Source of the DNA: Gammaproteobacteria bacterium
GTDB taxonomy: Bacteria > Pseudomonadota > Gammaproteobacteria > HK1
DNA length: 9,431 bases
NCBI GenBank assembly: GCA_022822245.1
Contig: JAJECB010000349.1
Span: forward strand, 1-9,431
Direction: 5' to 3'
How positions within the stretch are numbered: position 1 is the stretch's first letter; each line of letters starts with the position of its first letter. The translations under genes and the position numbers were made by a program. Below are positions 1 to 9,431 of this stretch, in pieces. Below the pieces are notes generated by a model. That model saw only the letters and a list, made by a program, of their open reading frames with translations, was not told the DNA's origin and made no database searches.

Positions 1-721
1 CGCGGTGGAGGAGGGCGGCGGTGGCTTGCAGGGTAGGTGCCTCGCGCCGACCGAGGATGTCGTCGAGAACGAACCGCAGCAGGCGGTTGTGGGTCCACTT
101 GCCCCGCTCGATCAGCAGGATCTGGCGCGGCGCGAGCAGGATTACCCAGCGCGCCGGATGCTCCGCGCCGAAGATGCGGCGCGTGATGATGTCGTTCCAG
201 GTCTCTCCGAGCAGCGATTCCGCTGGCGGGGCCTCGCCGTGGAACTGCGCCCGGTGGGGTCGGAGCGAGAGCGGGTCCTCGTCCTCCCCGTCCGGGTCGT
301 AGGCGCCGAGGACGAGAAGCTGCGCCGCACCGTTCCGGATTCCGGTTGCGGAGAGCACCGGCACTTCGTCGCCGTTGTCGGCGCCGCGGCTTCGCCGTTG
401 CGCGCCGCCGTCAAGGACGTGATTTTCGGGCTCGAAGTCGTAGCCGAGCGCGGTCAGAAGCAGGCGGAACCAGTCGCGTTGCAGGCGAACGCGGGTCTCG
501 TCTGTCCGAGTCCGACCGAACTCCTGCCGGAACCTGAGGTAAGGGCGTGCGAGACCGCGCAGGGTCTGATCGGGAGCCGTTTCACTTCGGCCCGTGCTCT
601 CGGCGGCAGGCTCGCGCCAGCGGGCGGTCGTGCCCTGGATGTCGTTGGCAAAGAGCTCCGCGAGGTAATGGTGGCTGTAGAACTCGTTCTCGTTCTGGAT
701 ACCGGTGAAGGTGGCGGGCAT
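1..721 (-). CDS. N-terminal part of a large DNA methyltransferase-like (Eco57I/type IIG-like) defence protein; runs off the left edge
   Basis: The frame is open from ATG (721-719) to base 1: 240 codons without a stop, so this is a partial gene. The start is chosen because the protein begins with a family-like opening, F-T-G-I-Q-N-E-N-E-F-Y-S-H-H-Y-L (residues 5-20). Further on come a segment rich in W, F and L (Q-R-D-W-F-R-L-L, about 101-108) and R-W-V-I-L-L-A-P-R-Q-I-L-L-I-E-R-G-K-W (about 191-210), then L-R-F-V-L-D-D-I-L-G-R-R-E. From memory of the family, this kind of sequence precedes the SAM-binding domain in large Eco57I-like methylases of about 1,000 residues or more. The catalytic NPPY motif and SAM motifs would lie beyond the edge, so methyltransferase function is inferred and not seen. 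No clear Shine-Dalgarno precedes the ATG. It lies 118 bases downstream of the AIPR gene on the same strand. If the locus is DISARM-like, this gene would take the place of drmMI. A restriction enzyme fused to a methylase is an alternative. Confidence 0.75.
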   Translation of the reverse strand, partial: MPATFTGIQNENEFYSHHYLAELFANDIQGTTARWREPAAESTGRSETAPDQTLRGLARPYLRFRQEFGRTRTDETRVRLQRDWFRLLLTALGYDFEPENHVLDGGAQRRSRGADNGDEVPVLSATGIRNGAAQLLVLGAYDPDGEDEDPLSLRPHRAQFHGEAPPAESLLGETWNDIITRRIFGAEHPARWVILLAPRQILLIERGKWTHNRLLRFVLDDILGRREAPTLQATAALLHR

Positions 722-839
722 GGTTCGCGGCCGATTAGCGTCCGGCGCCCCGCCCGGCGGCTCGCGCGGGTCTGTGGCCGTTTCGGATGCCGGAGCGGGC
801 GCTCATCTTTCCCACGCTACCGCGCGTTCGAGCCGCGCG

Positions 840-2585
840 TCAGGCAAGCGCAGGTCCATCCGCGTTCAGCATCTCGAGTAGGTCGCCGCGGCGGAAGGTG
901 GCGGCGAGTTGCTGAAGCGAGATGTCGCGGTCGCCATAGCAGGCTCGGAGGGCGTCACTCACCGACACGATCGCGAACGCGTGGTAGCGCTCCCCGTTCT
1001 CTTGCAGCGCGGTCCTGATGGCGTCGAAATCCCGGTGGGAGATCTCGTTGATCTCGAGTGGCAAGTCCCGCAGGATTGAGTGTCCAACTATCATGGACAG
1101 ATGGTGGGACGCATACGGGAGGAAGCTCGGTGCTCCCTCCACGTGCTCTTTCCTCACCTTTTCGACCGCTCTGTAGATCAGCGTTGCGACTACCGCTTGG
1201 GTCGCGTTGAGATCCTTGAAAATAAGATCGTACAGCCTTCCGAAATGCTCCCGGCGTCGGTACTTCGCCTGATGCGGCCTTCGGCGCCAGATCGCGAGTA
1301 CTGCTTCGGCGACAGTGGCACTCGTGATGATCTCGGGACCACCTGAACCCTCTTCCCTATGGCGTTTGTAACTGAAGCCCAAGTCCTTGATCCCCAGTTC
1401 CAGAGTCCTCTGCACTTCGTCGTTCGAGCGCAAGTCCCGGAGATCCACGGGGCTCTGACTGTTGGTGGCCTTGGTGATTTCTTGCACCACCTCGTCCGAT
1501 TCGTCGGGCAACTGGTAAATGCGAGCCATGACGTAGGCGGATTCACCGACCTGGCCACCATTCTCTTTCAAGGTTCGCTGGATCGTCTTGCAGGTCTGAC
1601 CGCCATTGATTACCTGCACATTCTTCAACTGCACTTGATAGTCCGAGCTCTGGAACGCGTTGTAGTCGAACCGATCGCAGACCAGGGTGATGCCATTGTT
1701 GTAGAAATAGAACCTGTCGGAGCGATCTTGATCGAGAAGGGTATTGCGAATATCGGCGTTTACGCGATTGGCGTGTCCCAGAAAACGCCGAATGTTGCGT
1801 TGAAGCAGTCGCTCTCCGTACTCGTCAAATAGACGTCCCACTTCCTGGACCGCCAGCCGGCCAACGAGTACGCGCATGAAGTTCATGTCCTCGATGATCG
1901 CCTTGCCGTTCAGCATCAAGGTGGCGTCTATGCGCTTCCCTCGTTGCATGGAGCGCACGATCGCGTCGTGGTTGAAATGCAGGAATTCCAATTGATCTCG
2001 ATATTCTTGCTCAGCTTCGTGGATCCAGGTATTGGCCTGATCCGTCCACCTCGCGCCGTTATTGCAGAGAACCACGCGCACGGTCGGCAGGTAGCCATCT
2101 TGAATGAACGAACGCACCTCGGCGATCTTCGGTGCGATTCTCTCGTTCAACACGACGGGGCGATCAGGATCGAACAACACCCGAGTGGCGTTCAGAGCTG
2201 AATGGACGCCGTTTTCGGGAAAGTTGGCGGTGCCGCCGAGATCCTTTACCTTGTACCTGCCCTGGAAAATCGTCACGAAGAACTCCCCGCCTTCGACGTC
2301 GCTCATGTACAGGCCGTCCACCCCGGCATCGTTCCCACCTTCGGTCAGCATTTCCGCGCATTCGTCGAGTGCGAAGCCGAGGGCTTCAGACATGCACAGG
2401 ACCACGAACGCGGCGGATTTACGCTTGTTCTCGTCCGGCCACGGAAACCATTCCGGGTTGGCATCAACGATGCCTGTTACTCGAAGATCGACGATGCTGG
2501 CGTTGATGTTCGTGGTCCTGCTCCGCTGCGATCGGCTCCGCGACCGGAAGGTGTATCCCCGCTGGCAGAACAGTACCACCGACAC
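840..2585 (-). CDS. AIPR-family (abortive infection phage resistance) protein
   Basis: This 581-codon gene encodes a protein with AIPR-family hallmarks: N-I-R-R-F-L-G (264-270), F-Y-N-N-G-I-T (294-300), V-I-N-G-G-Q-T (325-331) and A-T-N-S-Q-S-P-V-D-L-R-D-L-R-S-N-D (373-389). AIPR proteins are found in restriction-modification and abortive-infection loci. Their N-terminal half often carries a Mrr-like PD-(D/E)xK nuclease fold. The matching stretch here is D-A-G-V-D-G (86-91) followed by F-Q-G-R-Y-K (107-112), where the usual lysine after Q-x appears as arginine. The start is uncertain. GTG at 2585 follows an in-frame TGA at 2597-2595, and GTG at 2579 is an alternative. Neither has a convincing ribosome-binding site. 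Residues 1-28 are Arg/Ser-rich and unlike the rest; family-like sequence begins near N-A-S-I-V-D-L-R-V. Base composition is lower in GC than in both neighbours, suggesting separate acquisition. It sits 70 bases after the helicase stop and 118 before the methylase-like gene, same strand. Confidence 0.88.
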   Translation of the reverse strand: MSVVLFCQRGYTFRSRSRSQRSRTTNINASIVDLRVTGIVDANPEWFPWPDENKRKSAAFVVLCMSEALGFALDECAEMLTEGGNDAGVDGLYMSDVEGGEFFVTIFQGRYKVKDLGGTANFPENGVHSALNATRVLFDPDRPVVLNERIAPKIAEVRSFIQDGYLPTVRVVLCNNGARWTDQANTWIHEAEQEYRDQLEFLHFNHDAIVRSMQRGKRIDATLMLNGKAIIEDMNFMRVLVGRLAVQEVGRLFDEYGERLLQRNIRRFLGHANRVNADIRNTLLDQDRSDRFYFYNNGITLVCDRFDYNAFQSSDYQVQLKNVQVINGGQTCKTIQRTLKENGGQVGESAYVMARIYQLPDESDEVVQEITKATNSQSPVDLRDLRSNDEVQRTLELGIKDLGFSYKRHREEGSGGPEIITSATVAEAVLAIWRRRPHQAKYRRREHFGRLYDLIFKDLNATQAVVATLIYRAVEKVRKEHVEGAPSFLPYASHHLSMIVGHSILRDLPLEINEISHRDFDAIRTALQENGERYHAFAIVSVSDALRACYGDRDISLQQLAATFRRGDLLEMLNADGPALA

Positions 2586-2655
2586 CCGGGATCGTCACCC
2601 GTACCCGCCTCCATATGGCGGAGCGGGCGCCCGTGCGCCGGACGCACCGCGAGCT

Positions 2656-5600
2656 CTAACCCGGGAGCGGAGTCATCGCGCAGACGATCCTGATCCAGGG
2701 GTGGGGCTCGGTGGTCATGGTCTCCTGGATCCACTCCCAGTATTCGTCGTGGATGGTCTCGACCTCCTGGCGGGCCTGCTCGTCTCGGCGTTGCTTGAAG
2801 TGCTCCGCCTGATCGGACTGGAAGATGTCGAGCTCCAACTGCCGCAGGCGGCGGGCCCTGAATTCGTCCAGTGCTCTTACCTCGACGTCGAGCTTCGCAT
2901 TGATGGCTTCCTCGAACGCGTCGCGGCGTTCGATGAAGTGCTCCCGGGCGCGGTGTACGGCCTCCGTCAGGAGCCGCGAGAGGGAAGGCACGTCCACGGG
3001 CGGTTGACGGTTGGCGTGGCCCCGGCGCCCCAGGCCCGTGCGCTCGACCAGGTTCGTGAACGGGATCAGCTCCGACAACGCTCCGTCGCGGAAGGAGACG
3101 GCGATCCATTCATGGACGAGGGGATGGCTCTTCCGGTTCGGCACCAGGCCGGAGAAGACGAACACCGCCTCGCCCGGCACGAGGCCGGGGACCCCGGCGA
3201 GAACGGGCGCCTCGGAGCGGCCGAACGCGGCCAGCACCCGGTCGTTCAGCCACCCGACCACCGGGCTCAGCCGCCACAGGTAGTGCATGCGGGGCCAGGC
3301 CGACTCCGTCCGGCGGCTCTCCGCGATCGCTTCGGACATGCGGCGCCGGTCGGTGGTGAGGACGAAGCGGCGGCTGTCCGGGAGGATCTCCGGCGGCAGG
3401 TAGCGATAGCGGGCTACCAGGTCGTCCGGCGCGTCCAGGGTGAGGGTCTTTGAGTCGGCGTCGACCCGGAAGCGAATGCGGACCGGCATGATGGTCGTGT
3501 CGGCTGCACCGTCCGCATCGCCGCTCCTCGCTTGGAGCCGATGGAGGGCCGCTTCGCAGTACGCGAGATCGCTCTCGAAGAGCGAGAGCGGAGGTGGGGG
3601 CGGGGCCGGGGGCGCGGCGGACGGCCACGTCCCGGTCTCGACACCCCGCGTTCCAGCCTCTCCGCCTCGCATCGCGGCGGCGCCGCCCTGCGTCCCGACT
3701 TCATCGTCCCGTGTTCCGCCGTCACCGCCCTCCGGCCGCAGGAACATCGCGAGCAGGCTCTCGCCCTCGTTCGGTGTCGGGGTCAGGCGGCGGTCGAAGT
3801 CCGTGGCCGGCTCGCCGTGCGCGATGGCCCGCTCGGTGATCCGCTCCTCCTCGTGGACGTCGTGCACGTCCATGAACACGGACGGATCGCCGATGTTCCT
3901 GTATGCCTGCTCGTCCTTCTCCATCAGGACTTCGAGGATGCGCGTGTCGCCCCGAATCGTCGGATTGGCGCTCTCGGTCACCAGGTAGACGATCCGCGGC
4001 GTGGCGGTCTGGCCGTAGCGATCCACCCGGCCGTTTCGCTGCTGGAAGACCATCAGCGACCAGGGCAGGTCGAAGTGAATCAGGCGGTGGCATTGGTAAT
4101 GCAGGTTGATGCCCTCGGAGGCGACATCCGAGCAGATCAGGAGCCGCACCGGGCGTTGAGCGTTCCCGAAGTCCTCCACGACACGCTGCTGTTCGACGTC
4201 GCTCATGCCGCCGTGGAGGGTCTCCACTTGACCGGGCTTGAGCGCGAGATCCGTGGTGAGCTGCGTCTTCAGCCAGTTCAGGGTCGCAATGCGTTCGGTG
4301 AAGATGACGAGACGGTCGGCCGCGTCGTCGGCTTTCCAGACGAACGGCTGGTTGTTGCGGATCGCGGCGAGCAGCGCCTGGTACTTGGCGTGGGTCGCGG
4401 GGACGATCCGTTCGAGCGCGGTCCGGAGCTCATGCAGGCCGGCGACTTCCGCTTGCCGGGCCGCGCTGTCCTTGCCGTCGGCGATCTCCCGCTCTCGTCG
4501 CTGGACACGGTCCGCCGCGGTCTCGAGGCAGGCCGCGGGGCTCGAGAAGAGGGCCTTCTCCAGGGTCACCGTGAAGAGGTCGCGGCTCGCGGTGTCAGCC
4601 CCGCGGCCGGCGATGGGGACGGACAGCAATGTCTCATACGCCGCCTCTTCCTCCATCGACGCGGGGAATCGCGGAGAGAACACCTCCCGGTCCTGGAACG
4701 CCTCGCGCACTTGCTCCTGCACGTCCTTCTTGAAGCGGCGGACCACGAGCCCGGGGCGGAAGTCTGCCTTCGTGTACTCGTCGGGGTTGGTGATCGCGGT
4801 GGCATCCAGCATGTTGACCAGGCTGGCGAAGCTGCGCGCCTTGCCGTCGTGCGGGGTGGCCGAGAGCATGATGAGGGTGTCGGACTGCCTCGCCAGCAGC
4901 TTCGCGAGGCGGCTCCGCAGGGAGCCCGTACCCCGGTCGGCCACGTTGTGCGCCTCGTCGATGACGATGATGTCCCACCGCGCCTCTTCCAGATACGTAC
5001 GGTATTCCGCGTCCTGTTTGAGGGTGTCGATGGAGATGATCGCCTTGTCGTAGTAGTAGAACGGGTTGTGGTTGGTCGGAATGCGGCTCCGCACCCGCTG
5101 AATGCCGATCGAATCCAGGCGGGTGAGGGGAATCGTGAAACGGTTCCAGAATTCCTTCTGGAACTGGGTCAGCATGCTCTTCACCGCGAGCACGAGAATG
5201 CGCTGGCCGCGCCCCCGAGCGATGAGCTCGCTCACCAGGATGCCGGCTTCCAGGGTCTTGCCAAGGCCGACTGCATCGGCGATCAGGATGCGTTGGCGGG
5301 GCCGCGCAAGCGTGAGGCGCGCCGGGTCGAGCTGATAGGGGACGAGATCCATGGCGGCGGTGTGCCCGACGTGAATCTCCGCGTCGTTCGGCACGGCCTG
5401 ACGAAGCTGGCTCTCCATGTAGAGGATGCTGTCGGTGAACTGGGCGGAGCTGTCGGGAACCAGCTTCGTCTTCGCCGGATCGAGCACCTCGATGGCGGGC
5501 TCGAGCGCGGTGAGGAAGACGGCCTCGCGTCCCCGTACGAGCTCGGAGACGCCGTCGCAGACTAACTGGTACCCGCCCGGCGCGTGGTCTACCCGCCGGA

Positions 5601-5727
5601 CAATCCACTCCGCATCGCGCACGACGACGCGCGCGCCGGGGGTCGGGATGAAGGCTTGTCGGTCGGGCGGTGGTTTCATGGTGACCGGCAATCGCTCAGG
5701 TGACGCCGTGACAGAGAATCCGCCCAT
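2656..5727 (-). CDS. drmD: SNF2-family DEAH-box helicase, DrmD-like (class 1 DISARM)
   Basis: The 1023-residue protein is a superfamily 2 helicase/translocase of the SNF2 type. Visible motifs are Walker A D-A-V-G-L-G-K-T (151-158), Walker B/motif II D-E-A-H (257-260), motif III S-A-T (289-291), motif V S-D-V-A-S-E-G-I-N-L (533-542) and motif VI Q-Q-R-N-G-R-V-D-R-Y-G-Q (562-573). The N-terminus has P-G-x-x-V-x-V-R-x-x-x-W (30-41). A low-complexity linker rich in Gly, Thr and Pro (about 667-713) separates the motor from a C-terminal region. Its last ~120 residues are Arg/Glu-rich and probably coiled coil. Length and layout fit DrmD, the helicase of class 1 DISARM. The assignment to DrmD rather than another HepA-like SNF2 protein is inferred from the architecture and from the methylase-like gene downstream. 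The ATG at 5727 has a weak GGCGGA upstream; ATG at 5679 (residue 17) is an equally possible start. The gene begins 75 bases after res, same strand. Confidence 0.85.
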   Translation of the reverse strand: MGGFSVTASPERLPVTMKPPPDRQAFIPTPGARVVVRDAEWIVRRVDHAPGGYQLVCDGVSELVRGREAVFLTALEPAIEVLDPAKTKLVPDSSAQFTDSILYMESQLRQAVPNDAEIHVGHTAAMDLVPYQLDPARLTLARPRQRILIADAVGLGKTLEAGILVSELIARGRGQRILVLAVKSMLTQFQKEFWNRFTIPLTRLDSIGIQRVRSRIPTNHNPFYYYDKAIISIDTLKQDAEYRTYLEEARWDIIVIDEAHNVADRGTGSLRSRLAKLLARQSDTLIMLSATPHDGKARSFASLVNMLDATAITNPDEYTKADFRPGLVVRRFKKDVQEQVREAFQDREVFSPRFPASMEEEAAYETLLSVPIAGRGADTASRDLFTVTLEKALFSSPAACLETAADRVQRREREIADGKDSAARQAEVAGLHELRTALERIVPATHAKYQALLAAIRNNQPFVWKADDAADRLVIFTERIATLNWLKTQLTTDLALKPGQVETLHGGMSDVEQQRVVEDFGNAQRPVRLLICSDVASEGINLHYQCHRLIHFDLPWSLMVFQQRNGRVDRYGQTATPRIVYLVTESANPTIRGDTRILEVLMEKDEQAYRNIGDPSVFMDVHDVHEEERITERAIAHGEPATDFDRRLTPTPNEGESLLAMFLRPEGGDGGTRDDEVGTQGGAAAMRGGEAGTRGVETGTWPSAAPPAPPPPPLSLFESDLAYCEAALHRLQARSGDADGAADTTIMPVRIRFRVDADSKTLTLDAPDDLVARYRYLPPEILPDSRRFVLTTDRRRMSEAIAESRRTESAWPRMHYLWRLSPVVGWLNDRVLAAFGRSEAPVLAGVPGLVPGEAVFVFSGLVPNRKSHPLVHEWIAVSFRDGALSELIPFTNLVERTGLGRRGHANRQPPVDVPSLSRLLTEAVHRAREHFIERRDAFEEAINAKLDVEVRALDEFRARRLRQLELDIFQSDQAEHFKQRRDEQARQEVETIHDEYWEWIQETMTTEPHPWIRIVCAMTPLPG
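3600..3740 (-). repeat. Imperfect 63-base internal duplication in the helicase linker
   Basis: Within the helicase gene, the stretch starting CGTCCCGG at 3628 recurs in diverged form from CGTCCCGA at 3691, an offset of 63 bases or 21 codons. In the protein the two copies read G-T-R-D-D-E-V-G-T (671-679) and G-T-R-G-V-E-T-G-T (692-700), followed by a proline run (707-713). The surrounding linker is Gly/Thr-rich and carries no helicase motif, so it is probably a flexible, length-variable spacer between motor and C-terminal region. Confidence 0.5.
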
Positions 5728-5802
5728 GTCGGTGTCCGCCCGGCGTGCTCGGTTGTCCGAGGGGCCCGCTTGGGTAGCGGCCGTGCAACCACCCTCGACC
5801 CC

Positions 5803-6234
5803 CTATGGATGCGCCAGCCTGCGGTCGAACACGAAGGGCCGGAGCGTTCCGGGGAGCACCCGGTCGAAGTCGGGGTGGGCCGGATTGATCACGACATTGT
5901 GCTCGAGCGGATTCACGAAGCTCGGCGCCATGATCGCAAGGTGGATTCGGAGCATCTCGGCGCCGGTCCGCCGGGTATCGCCGATGGGTCCGGGCGGTGC
6001 GGTGATCGAGTCATCGGGAACATCGAGGTCCAGGATACGGTAGCTCGGGAACGTGGACAGGCGGACCAGGTTGGCAAGAATTTCCAGTGCCGCCAGCGAC
6101 GAGTTCTCGCTGCAGTACACGGCGGGCACCCCCTTGGGGTTCCACCTGCCGCCGTACCTGGCGGCGCCCTCACCGCTCAACATGTCCTCGACGCTGCCCG
6201 CGTGCCCGGACTTCGCGATTCGCCACACCTTCAC
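5803..6234 (-). CDS. res: RES-domain toxin of a RES-Xre toxin-antitoxin pair (predicted NAD+-degrading)
   Basis: The 143-residue protein is almost wholly a RES domain. It shows the R-I-A opening (5-7), L-S-G-E-G-A (19-24), G-G-R-W-N-P-K-G (28-35), Y-C-S-E (40-43), A-A-L-E (48-51), H-N-V-V-I-N-P-A-H-P (near 113-123) and an L-R-P-F-V-F-D-x-R-L tail. Family members such as MbcT and the Pseudomonas putida Res toxin are related to ADP-ribosyltransferases and deplete NAD+. Arg30, Tyr40 and Glu51 fit the conserved active-site residues, so the toxin looks intact. Its ATG overlaps the antitoxin stop in an ATGA arrangement (6234-6231), implying translational coupling and a fixed antitoxin-first order. 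The stop is TAG at 5805-5803. The helicase gene follows 75 bases downstream with no strong terminator between, so co-transcription is possible. Confidence 0.93.
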   Translation of the reverse strand: MKVWRIAKSGHAGSVEDMLSGEGAARYGGRWNPKGVPAVYCSENSSLAALEILANLVRLSTFPSYRILDLDVPDDSITAPPGPIGDTRRTGAEMLRIHLAIMAPSFVNPLEHNVVINPAHPDFDRVLPGTLRPFVFDRRLAHP

Positions 6235-6644
6235 GTCGGTATGCCATGCTCCAGGCGGCCAAGCAGGTCGATCACGTCCTCCGCCCCGGTGGCGGTGTCC
6301 GCGCGCCCGAGCGGTGTCTCTCCCCCCAGCGCGGGATTGGGGTGCTTCAGCCAGTCGAGGGCGTATTCCCGGTTGCCGTCGAAGTACGACACGGCCGTGT
6401 TGAATACCTTGGCTACCATGGCGGCACGATCACCCTCATCCCGGCGCAGGACCCCCTGACTCCTGCGCCGCACCAGGGTCTGACGCGCAATACCGACCAC
6501 ACTCGCAAGCTGCGTCTCCGTCACCTCCAGAGAGTCCTTCAGGCGCTCCAGAAAGCTGGTGGGCAGACCGCCACGGATCTCGGCCAGAGTGGGTTGAGGG
6601 AGCACCGAGAGTCGCGACGTGCTCCCCGAAGTCCCTGCGGTCAT
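6231..6644 (-). CDS. xre: Xre-family antitoxin with MbcA/ParS-type (DUF2384) C-terminal domain
   Basis: The 137-residue protein is the antitoxin partner of the RES toxin. A helix-turn-helix-like segment runs over about residues 42-64 (T-E-T-Q-L-A-S-V-V-G-I-A-R-Q-T-L). The C-terminal toxin-binding domain is typical: A-L-D-W-L-K-H-P-N-P-A-L-G-G-E-T-P-L (95-112), then T-A-T-G-A-E-D-V-I-D-L-L-G-R-L-E-H-G at the end. ATG at 6644 was chosen because GGAAGG lies 6 bases upstream. A longer version from TTG at 6677 is possible but lacks such a site. In this family the antitoxin binds the toxin and also represses its own promoter, and the short palindrome upstream (6682-6689) suits that. The stop overlaps the toxin start by 4 bases. 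Confidence 0.92.
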   Translation of the reverse strand: MTAGTSGSTSRLSVLPQPTLAEIRGGLPTSFLERLKDSLEVTETQLASVVGIARQTLVRRRSQGVLRRDEGDRAAMVAKVFNTAVSYFDGNREYALDWLKHPNPALGGETPLGRADTATGAEDVIDLLGRLEHGIPT

Positions 6645-6650
6645 CTGAAG

Positions 6651-6656
6651 CCTTCC
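6651..6656 (-). promoter_or_regulatory. Ribosome-binding site of xre
   Basis: GGAAGG on the minus strand lies 6 bases before ATG 6644. It decides the start in favour of this ATG over the upstream in-frame TTG at 6677. Confidence 0.7.
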
Positions 6657-6676
6657 GTCGTTTTTGGGATGAATCA

Positions 6677-6693
6677 ATGTATCATATGAACAT
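6677..6693 (-). promoter_or_regulatory. Candidate xre-res promoter -10 and operator
   Basis: On the minus strand TATGAT (6686-6681) resembles a sigma-70 -10 box and would start transcription about 30 bases before the xre ATG. It overlaps the perfect 8-base palindrome TCATATGA (6682-6689), flanked by ATGT (6677-6680) and ACAT (6690-6693), a second inverted repeat. The stretch is AT-rich within GC-rich DNA. No good -35 is visible at the usual distance. Role in autorepression by Xre is inferred. Confidence 0.4.
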
Positions 6694-6785
6694 CAAACCG
6701 ATGAGGGCTTTGAACGGGACGCCCAGGGTCGGGCCGCCCCGTTTCCTCCTCCGCACGGGCTCACTCTGAATGGGTCCTGCGCTTT

Positions 6786-6800
6786 GCACTGTTCCGGGGC
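6786..6800 (+). promoter_or_regulatory. Weak second NtrC-like site upstream of glnA
   Basis: GCACTG-TTC-CGGGGC resembles the NtrC consensus GCACYA-N3-TGGTGC, with five of six bases in the left half and four of six in the right half. It begins exactly 30 bases before the strong site at 6816, so both would lie on the same helix face, as with paired enhancer sites at enterobacterial glnA. Weak alone, it gains support from this spacing. Confidence 0.5.
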
Positions 6801-6815
6801 ATGACTTTCGATTAC

Positions 6816-6830
6816 GCACTAAAATGGTGC
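6816..6830 (+). promoter_or_regulatory. NtrC enhancer site of glnA
   Basis: GCACTA-AAA-TGGTGC matches the consensus GCACYA-N3-TGGTGC at every fixed position. It lies about 200 bases upstream of the predicted sigma-54 transcription start, within the normal range for an NtrC enhancer acting by DNA looping. Confidence 0.85.
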
Positions 6831-6890
6831 GCGCGGTCGAACGGAGCCCCGCCTTGTTGCCATTTCGGGCGCCGGCGGCAGGACACGCGT

Positions 6891-6906
6891 AGCGGCCCGG
6901 GCCGCT
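6891..6906. repeat. 16-base perfect GC palindrome
   Basis: AGCGGCCCGGGCCGCT reads the same on both strands. It lies between the NtrC sites and the sigma-54 promoter. There is no T tract, so it is not an intrinsic terminator. Its role is unknown. Confidence 0.6.
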
Positions 6907-6994
6907 TGAAACCCTGCACCCTCGGCGGCGCGGCAGGACGCGGAAGGAGGCGTACCGCATTCGCCGCTCGCCAGCGGGGCGGACCACCGGTTAT

Positions 6995-7010
6995 TGGCAC
7001 GGTTCCTGCA
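6995..7010 (+). promoter_or_regulatory. Sigma-54 (RpoN) promoter of glnA
   Basis: TTGGCACGGTTCCTGCA has the -24 GG (6996-6997) and -12 GC (7008-7009) separated by exactly 10 bases, and the TGGCACG block is complete. The start of transcription would be near 7021, giving a leader of about 73 bases. With the NtrC sites upstream this marks nitrogen-limitation control. Confidence 0.87.
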
Positions 7011-7081
7011 TTGTCTTCAGGTGGACCCCCGCGTTGACAAGCGGGTGACAGCCAAGCCGCCCGGCCCCCGGGCCGACCGCA

Positions 7082-7087
7082 AAGGAG
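7082..7087 (+). promoter_or_regulatory. Ribosome-binding site of glnA
   Basis: AAGGAG lies 6 bases before ATG 7094 and fixes the start. A small hairpin (7062-7075) ends just upstream. Confidence 0.85.
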
Positions 7088-7093
7088 CAAGAC

Positions 7094-8497
7094 ATGGCAA
7101 CCCCATCCGATGTCATCGGGAAGATCCGGGACGAGGACGTGAAGTTCGTGGACCTGAGGTTCACCGATACCCGCGGCAAGGAGCGGCACTCGACGGTACC
7201 CGCGAGGGTGGTCGATGAACGGTTCTTCGAGACGGGCAAGATGTTCGACGGCTCATCGATCGCGGGCTGGCGGAGCATCGACAAGTCCGACATGGTGCTG
7301 ATGCCCGAGGCCGCGAGCGCGGTCGTCGATCCCTTCCGCGACGAGCCGACCCTCATCCTTCGCTGCGACGTGCTCGTCCCCGACACCATGGAAGGCTACG
7401 ACCGCGATCCGCGCACCGTCGCCAGGCGCGCGGAGGCGTACCTCGCGTCGACCGGCATCGCGGACTTCGCCCTCTTCGGGCCCGAGCCCGAGTTCTTCAT
7501 CTTCGACGACGTGCGCTTCGGCGACGGCGTCAACCACTGTTTCTACGAGATCCGGTCCTCCGAAGGGGCGTGGGACTCCGAGTGGGAGGGCAACCGCGGC
7601 CACCGCGTCCGGCTCAAGGGCGGCTACTTTCCGGTGCCTCCGGTGGATTCCCTCTTCGACGTGCGCTCCGCCATGTGCCTCACCCTGGAGGAAGTGGGGC
7701 TCGAGGTGGAGATGCACCACCACGAGGTGGGCACCGGCGGGCAGGCGGAGATCGGGACCGGCGCCGCGACTCTCGTAGCGAAGGCCGACCAGGTCCAGAT
7801 GCTCAAGTACGTGGTGCACAACGTCGCCGCCTCCTTCGGCATGACCGCGACCTTCATGCCGAAGCCGATGGTGGGGGACAACGGCAACGGCATGCACGTC
7901 CACCAGTCGCTCGCGAAGGACGGGCGGAACCTCTTCCCCGGCGACCTCTACGGCGGGCTCTCCCAGGAGGCCCTGTGGTACGTCGGGGGCATCTTCAGAC
8001 ACGCCCGGGCCCTCAACGCGTTCACCAACTCCGGCACCAACTCCTACAAGCGGCTCGTGCCGGGCTTCGAGGCCCCGACCCTGCTCGCGTACTCCGCGAC
8101 GAACCGGTCGGCCTCGGTGCGCATCCCCTTCGTGCACGACCCCGACGCAGCCCGGGTCGAGGTGCGGTTCCCGGACTCGAACGGCAATCCCTACCTCACC
8201 TTCGCGTCGATGATGATGGCGGGGATCGACGGCATCCGGAACCGGATCGACCCCGGCGATCCGATCGACCGCGACCTCTACGAGCTGAGCCGCGAGGAGG
8301 AGCGGAGCATTCCCCACATCTGCGCGACCCTCGCCGAGGCCCTCGACGAACTGCGCGAGGACCGGGAGTTCCTCACCGCGTCGGAGGTCTTCACCGACGA
8401 CATGATCGACGCGTACATCGATCTCAAGATGGAGGAAGTGGATCGGATGCTGATGGCGACCCACCCCTGCGAGTTCGACATGTACTACAGCCTCTGA
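7094..8497 (+). CDS. glnA: Glutamine synthetase type I (GSI, adenylylated form)
   Basis: The enzyme joins ammonium to glutamate using ATP to make glutamine, the main entry of ammonium into metabolism. It acts in the cytoplasm as a dodecamer. At 467 residues it is close to the usual 468-469. Signatures in order: F-D-G-S-S-I-A-G-W (51-59); metal-binding Glu131 and Glu133 in G-P-E-P-E-F; the H-H-H-E-V block with Glu211; Glu219; N-G-M-H-V-H (265-270) with the active-site His268; Arg320; flap Glu326 in [15 protein letters not shown] (337-345); E-V-R-F-P-D (356-361). Tyr396 in D-L-Y-E-L matches the tyrosine that GlnE adenylylates (Tyr397 in enterobacteria), so covalent control is expected in addition to NtrC/sigma-54 transcriptional control. 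ntrB follows after 85 bases in the same direction. Confidence 0.98.
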
Positions 8498-8509
8498 GGG
8501 GCCGGAGAG

Positions 8510-8571
8510 GGGGCGGCCGCAGGGCGACCGAGGGGCGGTGGGGAGCCGCTTCCGGCTCCCGCGGCCGCCCC
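8510..8571 (+). repeat. Nested hairpin in the glnA-ntrB spacer
   Basis: An outer perfect 11-base stem pairs GGGGCGGCCGC (8510-8520) with GCGGCCGCCCC (8561-8571). Inside it an 8-base stem GGGAGCCG (8541-8548) / CGGCTCCC (8553-8560) has a CTTC loop; the right arms of both stems abut. No T tract follows, so it is not a standard intrinsic terminator. It ends 11 bases before the ntrB ATG and could limit read-through, stabilise the glnA message or affect ntrB translation. These roles are inferred. Confidence 0.7.
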
Positions 8572-8582
8572 GAACGAGGCAC

Positions 8583-9431
8583 ATGCACCCGGCCCTCACG
8601 CAGCGCATCCTCGAGAACATGAGCACGGCGGCGGTCGTGCTTGACGGCGCGTTCCGGGTGGTGGCCCTCAACCCGGCGGCGGAGACGCTGCTTCAGACGA
8701 GCGCGCGCCGGAGCGCGGGGCTTGCCTTCGCCCGGGTGGCGCGCGGCGACGAGGCGACGGAGCTCGCTCGCCGGGCCCTCGCCGGCGGGCGGGCGTGCAT
8801 CGAGCGGAACATGCGGCTCGGGCGGCGGCGGGTCGACTGCACCGCGACCCCCCTCGGAGAGGGCGAAGATGGGGGCGAGGGCGAGGGCGCGAACCTGGGC
8901 GGAGGAGGAGGCGTGCTCCTCGAGATGGCGGACATCGAGCACCATCAGCGCATGAGCCACGAGGGCCGGCTGTTGACGCAGAGCGAATCGGTGGAAGCGG
9001 TGGTGCGCGGGCTCGCCCACGAGATCCGGAACCCCCTCGGGGGGCTCCGCGGGGCCGCCCAGCTCCTCGAGCGCGAGCTCGGGGCGAGGACGGCCGACGA
9101 CCTTGCGGAGTACACCGGAATCATCATCTCCGAGGCGGACCGCCTGAGCCTGCTCGTGGACCGGCTGCTGATGCCCGATGCGCCCGCGGAGCGCGAGCCC
9201 GTCAACCTGCACCGCGTCACCGAGCACGTGTGCGCCCTCGTCGAGGCGGAGGCCGCGCCGCGGGTCGCGGTCGCGCGCGACTATGACCCGAGCATCCCCA
9301 CCCTCCTCGGGAGCTTCGACCAGCTCGTGCAGGCGGTGCTGAACGTGGTGCGGAACGCCGTCCAGGCGAGGGGCGACCGCATCGCGATCCGCACCCGGGT
9401 GGTCCACCAGGCCCACATCGGCCGGCGCCAG
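8583..9431 (+). CDS. ntrB: Nitrogen regulation sensor histidine kinase NtrB (GlnL), 3' end cut by the window edge
   Basis: The frame is open for 283 codons to the last base. NtrB phosphorylates and dephosphorylates the response regulator NtrC in the cytoplasm according to the PII protein signal. A small PAS-like sensor occupies about residues 5-115 (I-L-E-N-M-S-T-A-A-V-V-L-D, then A-L-N-P-A-A-E-T-L-L). The H-box is G-L-A-H-E-I-R-N-P-L-G-G-L-R-G-A-A-Q-L-L, with His146 the phosphorylated residue. E-A-D-R-L-S-L-L-V-D-R-L-L closes the dimerisation helices. The N-box of the ATPase domain, V-L-N-V-V-R-N-A-V-Q-A, is present; the G boxes lie off the edge. No membrane segment is seen, as expected. Between the PAS region and L-L-E-M, residues 92-110 are nearly all Gly and Glu, longer than in enterobacterial NtrB. 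The ATG has GAGG only 3 bases upstream, so translation may be modest. ntrC probably follows beyond the edge. Confidence 0.95.
   Translation, partial: MHPALTQRILENMSTAAVVLDGAFRVVALNPAAETLLQTSARRSAGLAFARVARGDEATELARRALAGGRACIERNMRLGRRRVDCTATPLGEGEDGGEGEGANLGGGGGVLLEMADIEHHQRMSHEGRLLTQSESVEAVVRGLAHEIRNPLGGLRGAAQLLERELGARTADDLAEYTGIIISEADRLSLLVDRLLMPDAPAEREPVNLHRVTEHVCALVEAEAAPRVAVARDYDPSIPTLLGSFDQLVQAVLNVVRNAVQARGDRIAIRTRVVHQAHIGRRQ

Follow-up and report, generated by a model that had tools for sequence, protein, structure and literature searches.

The question raised by the window analysed here, the whole stretch of 9,431 nucleotides (nt) at positions 1-9,431 of contig JAJECB010000349.1 (GCA_022822245.1, Gammaproteobacteria, HK1), is to which defence system its AIPR gene belongs, and whether this gene is a regular part of that system. 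The gene, called with a GTG start and 581 amino acids (aa) (840..2585, minus strand), lies between an SNF2 helicase gene of 1023 aa (2656..5727, minus) and a methyltransferase-like frame of 240 aa that is cut by the window edge (2..721, minus). The earlier note on this DNA described the three genes correctly as an SNF2 helicase, an AIPR protein and an Eco57I-like N-terminus on one strand, and proposed either a variant of the DISARM system or an independent three-gene system. The analysis points instead to ARMADA, an anti-phage gene set related to DISARM and described in a 2025 preprint by Bell et al. (PMC12458937). The window is fairly likely to hold the 5' half of an ARMADA operon (armA and armB) from a lineage in which an aipr gene is fixed between the two. 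The fuller reading, to which we assign a probability of roughly 0.45, is that this fixed fifth gene encodes a nucleoside triphosphate (NTP)-gated PD-(D/E)xK-ParB nuclease translated from a conserved ACG codon, and that this codon is an inherited translational throttle that arose at the base of the clade and has reverted several times to ATG.

The helicase contains the Pfam domains Helicase_C, SNF2-rel_dom, ResIII and DEAD, its Walker A (GLGKT, residue 154) and DEAH (residue 257) motifs are intact, and it is 70-71% identical to the helicases of four other loci with the same gene order (L001, L003, L017 and L040). Its best NCBIfam and PADLOC name is DrmD (318 bits in PADLOC), as would be expected if the locus were a class 1 DISARM variant in which drmD and drmMI are split by an inserted AIPR. 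However, the hidden Markov model search for DrmD proposed in the earlier note gives only 353 bits against a curated cut-off of 610 for one NCBIfam model and 114 bits against 950 for the other, and E. coli ArmA scores similarly on these two models (353 and 123 bits). By itself, the 240-aa frame (721-2) matches nothing in the Pfam, NCBIfam and PADLOC libraries. Its identity is 64-69% to the N-termini of 1619-1669 aa proteins in L001, L003, L017 and L040, and 38-70% to 13 ArmB N-termini. The two full-length relatives scanned, those of L001 and L017, contain Eco57I and N6_Mtase domains and fit the PADLOC type IIG model PDLC03614 (843 and 849 bits) far better than DrmMI (181 and 168 bits). The NPPW motif is present in the methylases of all four loci; in the window, where the N-terminal 240 aa are readable, it would fall past the edge. 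The relatives carry a DruE/YprA-like ArmC as the third partner, and among nine PADLOC-scanned neighbour genes of the relatives no drmA, drmB or drmC is called, except for a weak DrmA match to ArmC (51 bits). DISARM is rejected on model scores and partner genes, and a class 1 variant is very improbable. The proposed relatedness of the pair to DISARM holds, with a DrmD-like helicase and a PglX-like methylase in both, but the assignment to DISARM itself does not.

In type II ARMADA, according to the accessible portion of Bell et al. (PMC12458937), armA encodes a BrxHII/RapA-like helicase, armB a PglX-like methylase with an NPPW motif, ArmC is YprA-like and ArmD is GajB-like. Relatives of the window helicase on two E. 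coli and two cyanobacterial plasmids (43-51% identical) are each followed by a methylase and then by a helicase of about 2100 aa. The large E. coli helicase is DruE-like in PADLOC (349 bits), and its neighbour gene in L152 is UvrD/GajB-like. The plasmid relatives match type II ARMADA, and the residues mutated by Bell et al. (ArmA K136 and D236, ArmB N971) coincide exactly with GLGKT, DEAH and NPPW of the plasmid proteins of L139. Among the ArmA relatives, ArmB comes next, and a DruE/YprA-like ArmC follows wherever the contig reaches far enough. Judged by sequence, the helicase (BrxHII/DrmD-like) and the methyltransferase (PglX/Eco57I-type) of the window are ArmA- and ArmB-like, and belong most probably to ARMADA and not to DISARM. 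They share with type II ARMADA the order of armA and armB, and the relatives share a YprA-like ArmC and a GajB-like ArmD; the locus differs from it in that AIPR stands between armA and armB, and two relatives (G002 and G004) in that other defence genes separate armC from armB.

In the flanks fetched first, nothing DruE-like follows armB at the loci with the trio of helicase, AIPR and methylase. When the four trio genomes (G001-G004) are searched as a whole, strong ArmC matches are found in G002, G003 and G004, but not in G001. In G002, armC lies about 6.4 kb downstream of armB and on its strand, and the contig (C253) ends at armC. In G004 it lies on the same strand about 12 kb downstream (contig C34), and in G003 on a contig other than that of the trio. 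A GajB-like ArmD follows ArmC in G003 and G004 by BLAST, with PADLOC support for G004. The absence of a strong ArmC in G001, and the roughly 6 and 12 kb of other genes between armB and armC in G002 and G004, would suit a stand-alone system of helicase, AIPR and methylase without armC and armD, as the earlier note had suggested in its second proposal. This is improbable, given ArmC on the same strand and contig in G002 and G004, ArmC together with ArmD in G003 and G004, and the reported loss of defence in the E. coli system when any of its four genes is lost (PMC12458937, in the portion accessible). AIPR is an addition to ARMADA, because ArmC is present in three of the four trio genomes. For the same reason, the reading that AIPR replaces ArmC was dropped. 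The interval between armB and armC contains a short pAgo with a REase-PNTD partner and a DruH-like gene (both by PADLOC) and a DruE-like frame (by BLAST only) in G004, and a type IIG enzyme (by PADLOC) in G002; these genes are located at L159 (2622-9202) and L176, and at L163 (6754-9846). With such genes in this interval, ARMADA seems to serve as a landing site for other defence genes.

Is AIPR a chance neighbour of armA and armB? AIPR relatives amount to 2926 matches among 7998 scored candidates, and the database proteins used below are the best 120 of these; 80 genome loci were kept of 275 places. The window AIPR itself belongs firmly to the family (PF10592, E 4.5e-49, 168 bits against a gathering cut-off of 25). 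The order helicase-AIPR-methylase, for which a survey had been proposed, is found in four of the 80 loci (L001, L003, L017 and L040), not in this genome alone. In L017, armA and AIPR are separated by a transposase-like gene (7659-8600; named by eye) and two opposite frames. Of the database AIPRs whose contigs reach 10 kb or more, 19 of 33 in the top 50 are co-located with a listed ArmA or ArmB match, as compared with 4 of 35 at ranks 51-120, where co-location means exactly equal contig size and is judged against the best 120 ArmA and best 120 ArmB matches; the remaining 14 and 31, respectively, have neither among the matches listed. The trio order is thus more than chance. In a quick tree of 88 AIPRs, the 12 that are labelled ARMADA, seven of them by equal contig size with an ArmA match, form with three of unknown context one 15-row clade with a support of 100. 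A careful tree built from 44 of the 88 AIPRs recovers this clade at 100/100. The AIPRs of BREX III, unlike those of ARMADA, are scattered on the tree.

The ArmA tree gives the corresponding picture. All 19 ArmAs accompanied by AIPR fall within one clade of 37 rows, the other 18 rows of which are of unknown context, and all 14 ArmAs without AIPR fall outside it (14 of the 15 AIPR-minus loci were used, since L153 has no match at the E 1e-50 limit). At these AIPR-minus loci, armA adjoins armB in 13 of 14. At L158, a frame of 529 aa without a match to the reference proteins used lies between armA and armB. Across 20 pairs, 15 of them matched by equal contig size, the distances of ArmA are correlated with those of AIPR (Mantel r 0.741, 0 of 5000 permutations), and shared host ancestry could contribute to this correlation. 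Judging from these trees, AIPR is stably fixed in one ARMADA lineage, so that the suggestion that AIPR had become a fixed part of the module is borne out, although for ARMADA rather than DISARM. The lineage has few members in the genomes searched. Searches for further ArmA give strong matches in 6 of 369, 7 of 398, 3 of 244 and 3 of 244 genomes, in sets that overlap and include the centre genomes. No full-length armA of the AIPR-plus lineage is found in genomes other than the centre ones, but only one 281-aa fragment that is 73% identical, and therefore the lineage is rare in that genome collection. A search for AIPR in 350 genomes finds it in two, one of which is the centre genome, and a scan of viral contigs with the window helicase finds no relative.

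This AIPR seems to start at a very uncommon codon. AIPRs of BREX-type and other relatives share a conserved protein start, M-N-I-N-A-S. Its Met codon is ATG in L017, L006, L009 and L011, and ACG in the window (2511..2513, minus) and in L001, L003 and L040, of which L001 and L003 are near-identical. A Shine-Dalgarno-like GGAG precedes the ACG by 7 nt in the window (2521..2524, minus), L001 and L003; in L040, GGGAGGAG precedes it by 6 nt. Natural ACG starts are very rare and weak in bacteria, and no natural bacterial gene with one is found among the matches listed in the literature search. Among the database AIPRs, the residue at this position is Thr in 29, Met in 5 and unreadable in 8 at ranks 1-42 (rank 1 being the window's own protein), and Met in 59, Thr in 2 and unread in 17 at ranks 43-120, four of the unread ones starting at this Met with a variant NINAS. 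The 95 readable rows of the 120 thus contain only Met or Thr. Thr stands for ACN, and ACG itself is seen in the DNA of four loci.

A 70-row tree has a 62-row clade with a support of 100, which contains 33 Thr, 9 Met and 20 unread rows (Thr in 33 of 42 readable), and all eight rows outside it have Met. The Met/Thr pattern requires five changes on this tree, the root of which is weakly placed. The ARMADA context is supported for 27 of the 62 clade rows, four by loci and 23 by equal contig size. An ordinary internal Thr codon, with translation starting at an N-terminal extension or another weak start codon, or reaching it by frameshift or stop read-through, would fit the in-frame GTG that lies 24 codons before the ACG in the window, upstream in-frame GTG or ATG codons in many database proteins, and the CTG six codons before the ACG in L040. 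However, in L001, L003 and L040 the frame is closed by stops 8, 8 and 19 codons upstream of the ACG with no ATG, GTG or TTG between; GGAG and ACG are kept in the four ACG loci, where the other upstream positions vary; and 19 of the 20 clade rows that are unreadable at the start have their called start at a Met within the conserved part. An internal Thr is therefore unlikely. It is likely, by contrast, that translation of AIPR starts at the ACG behind the Shine-Dalgarno site, which would keep its level very low and limit self-damage. Such a weak start would suit a product that harms the host when in excess.

What would this protein do? The structural model of AIPR is predicted to consist of an N-terminal PD-(D/E)xK nuclease-like domain resembling FokI, MspJI and HamA (residues about 22-214; 1944..2522, minus) and a ParB/DUF262-like domain resembling SspE and BrxU, with a helical C-terminus (residues 233-581; 843..1889, minus). 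The top ten rows in the structure comparison of the C-terminal part are ParB, SspE and BrxU, while plain Foldseek gives no significant match and a sequence-profile search of solved structures gives none at E<=0.1. A Pfam scan of 55 AIPRs gives no supported nuclease family (one member matches RE_HindVP at E 0.044), and neither DUF262 nor HNH is among the families shown (25 of 30). The predicted nuclease motif, D, D, Q and K, is present in 194 of 198 aligned AIPRs, and NGGQT (residues 327-331; 1593..1607, minus) in 196 of 198; we propose that NGGQT corresponds to the DGQQR-like motif found in DUF262 proteins, a motif whose role is described for BrxU (PMC8565348, in the part accessible). At the predicted catalytic Lys of D90...Q108-x-K110, codon 110 of the window is AGG (2256..2258, minus); of the 198 AIPRs, only the window protein and its identical database copy P0001 have Arg there. 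With Arg at this position, the window copy may have little or no nuclease activity. Single relatives, P0032 and L025, have Leu or His in place of Gln108. By its predicted fold, AIPR probably does supply the nuclease arm that the earlier note had postulated.

Chances are about even that AIPR acts as a self-contained NTP-gated nuclease. The ParB-like half would sense invading DNA or an NTP-linked cue, and the N-terminal half would cut DNA. By analogy with BrxU in BREX, AIPR would form a second layer and cover phages that escape the methylation-based self/non-self check of ARMADA, and the weak ACG start would hold it at a very low level. BrxU, a type IV enzyme of the GmrSD family (Picton et al. 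2021, PMC8565348), is reported in the part of that article consulted to be embedded in a BREX locus between brxC and pglX, sufficient alone, NTP-dependent, and to contain a DUF262 domain with DGQQR. It differs from AIPR in that its HNH (DUF1524) nuclease is C-terminal, whereas the PD-(D/E)xK-like domain of AIPR is N-terminal. AIPR might instead be an obligatory fifth ARMADA subunit that is signalled by ArmA and ArmB and serves as, or helps, the effector nuclease, as would agree with its constant place in one lineage and its divergence in step with ArmA there; this is doubtful, however, since AIPRs of the same family appear without the ArmA/ArmB pair in 76 of the 80 loci and ArmC, to which Bell et al. 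ascribe a predicted active Vsr nuclease (PMC12458937, accessible portion), is still encoded in three of the four genomes. Because the pair is not seen in 76 of 80 loci, the family can probably act outside ARMADA. An abortive-infection arm, in which AIPR attacks the host's own genome so that the infected cell dies once the first line fails, agrees with the family name and with its link to abortive infection in the literature, and an apparently throttled start would suit a toxic product. It is rather unlikely, however, because E. coli ARMADA is reported to be non-abortive and consists of four genes without AIPR (PMC12458937, in the portion of the text available).

AIPR is also found inside BREX III-like, BREX I-like and HKD-Snf2/type IIG operons, adjoining or near a methylase (L006, L034, L044, L051 and L068; L065, L069, L071, L072, L074 and L076; L009, L013 and L023). 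By clustering, with PADLOC run on eight representative genes, the 80 loci divide into BREX III (9), BREX I (10), HKD-Snf2/IIG (3), ARMADA (4) and none of these sets in the fetched stretch (54), many of the last on short contigs. A count of adenine-methylase motifs near AIPR is a weak measure, since its pattern missed the BREX I methylase cluster. A specific partnership of AIPR with BREX III is not general: in a survey of 345 genomes of one phylum, AIPR lies upstream of one of 18 BrxH places, the query's own. In the 1.5 kb fetched upstream of these places, a methylase is found in three, L193 has no upstream sequence, and the rest have other genes. The BREX III loci (L178-L195) thus have a variable slot directly upstream of brxH, and AIPR is one of several cargo genes in it. 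The AIPR/AbiU family (PF10592) has been described next to restriction-modification genes (Iyer 2008, PMC2292703; Makarova 2012, PMC3506569, both in the parts consulted), and the window AIPR shares with it membership and methylase neighbours. It differs in that embedding in ARMADA or BREX is not described in the literature searched (AIPR with BREX, DISARM, ARMADA and phage, subscription papers being largely outside), and in an N-terminal domain that is nuclease-like rather than HEPN. AIPR occurs 0 times in the main text of Bell et al. (PMC12458937).

In order of transcription on the minus strand, the window contains an Xre/MbcA/ParS antitoxin gene (6677-6231), a RES toxin gene (6234-5803), the helicase, AIPR and the edge-cut methylase-like frame. 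The gaps are 75 base pairs (bp) between RES and the helicase, 70 bp between the helicase and AIPR, and 118 bp between AIPR and the armB-like frame, and no terminator-like site is found in 1-7200, as compared with a mean of 4.4 in shuffled sequence. The RES/Xre pair (5803-6677, minus) precedes armA by 75 bp in the same orientation. In a BLAST comparison covering 123 loci, with results printed for L001-L081, neither protein has a match at these printed loci, including the four other ARMADA-AIPR loci. On the plus strand follow a glutamine synthetase gene (7094-8497) and a PAS/HisKA kinase gene cut by the window edge (8538-9431). In ArmA of the window, the alignment to all four relatives breaks at residues about 669-703, which are of low complexity in the translation and are perhaps a lineage-specific insert.

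These results add a gene not reported in the literature searched to a newly described defence system, and offer a proposed domain reading for AIPR, a widespread family with an unsettled mechanism whose members are mis-started or truncated by gene callers. If the ACG start is true, the family would offer naturally occurring ACG and ATG alleles of a single defence gene in an evolutionary series, with which one could test directly how inefficient initiation helps to tame defence nucleases.
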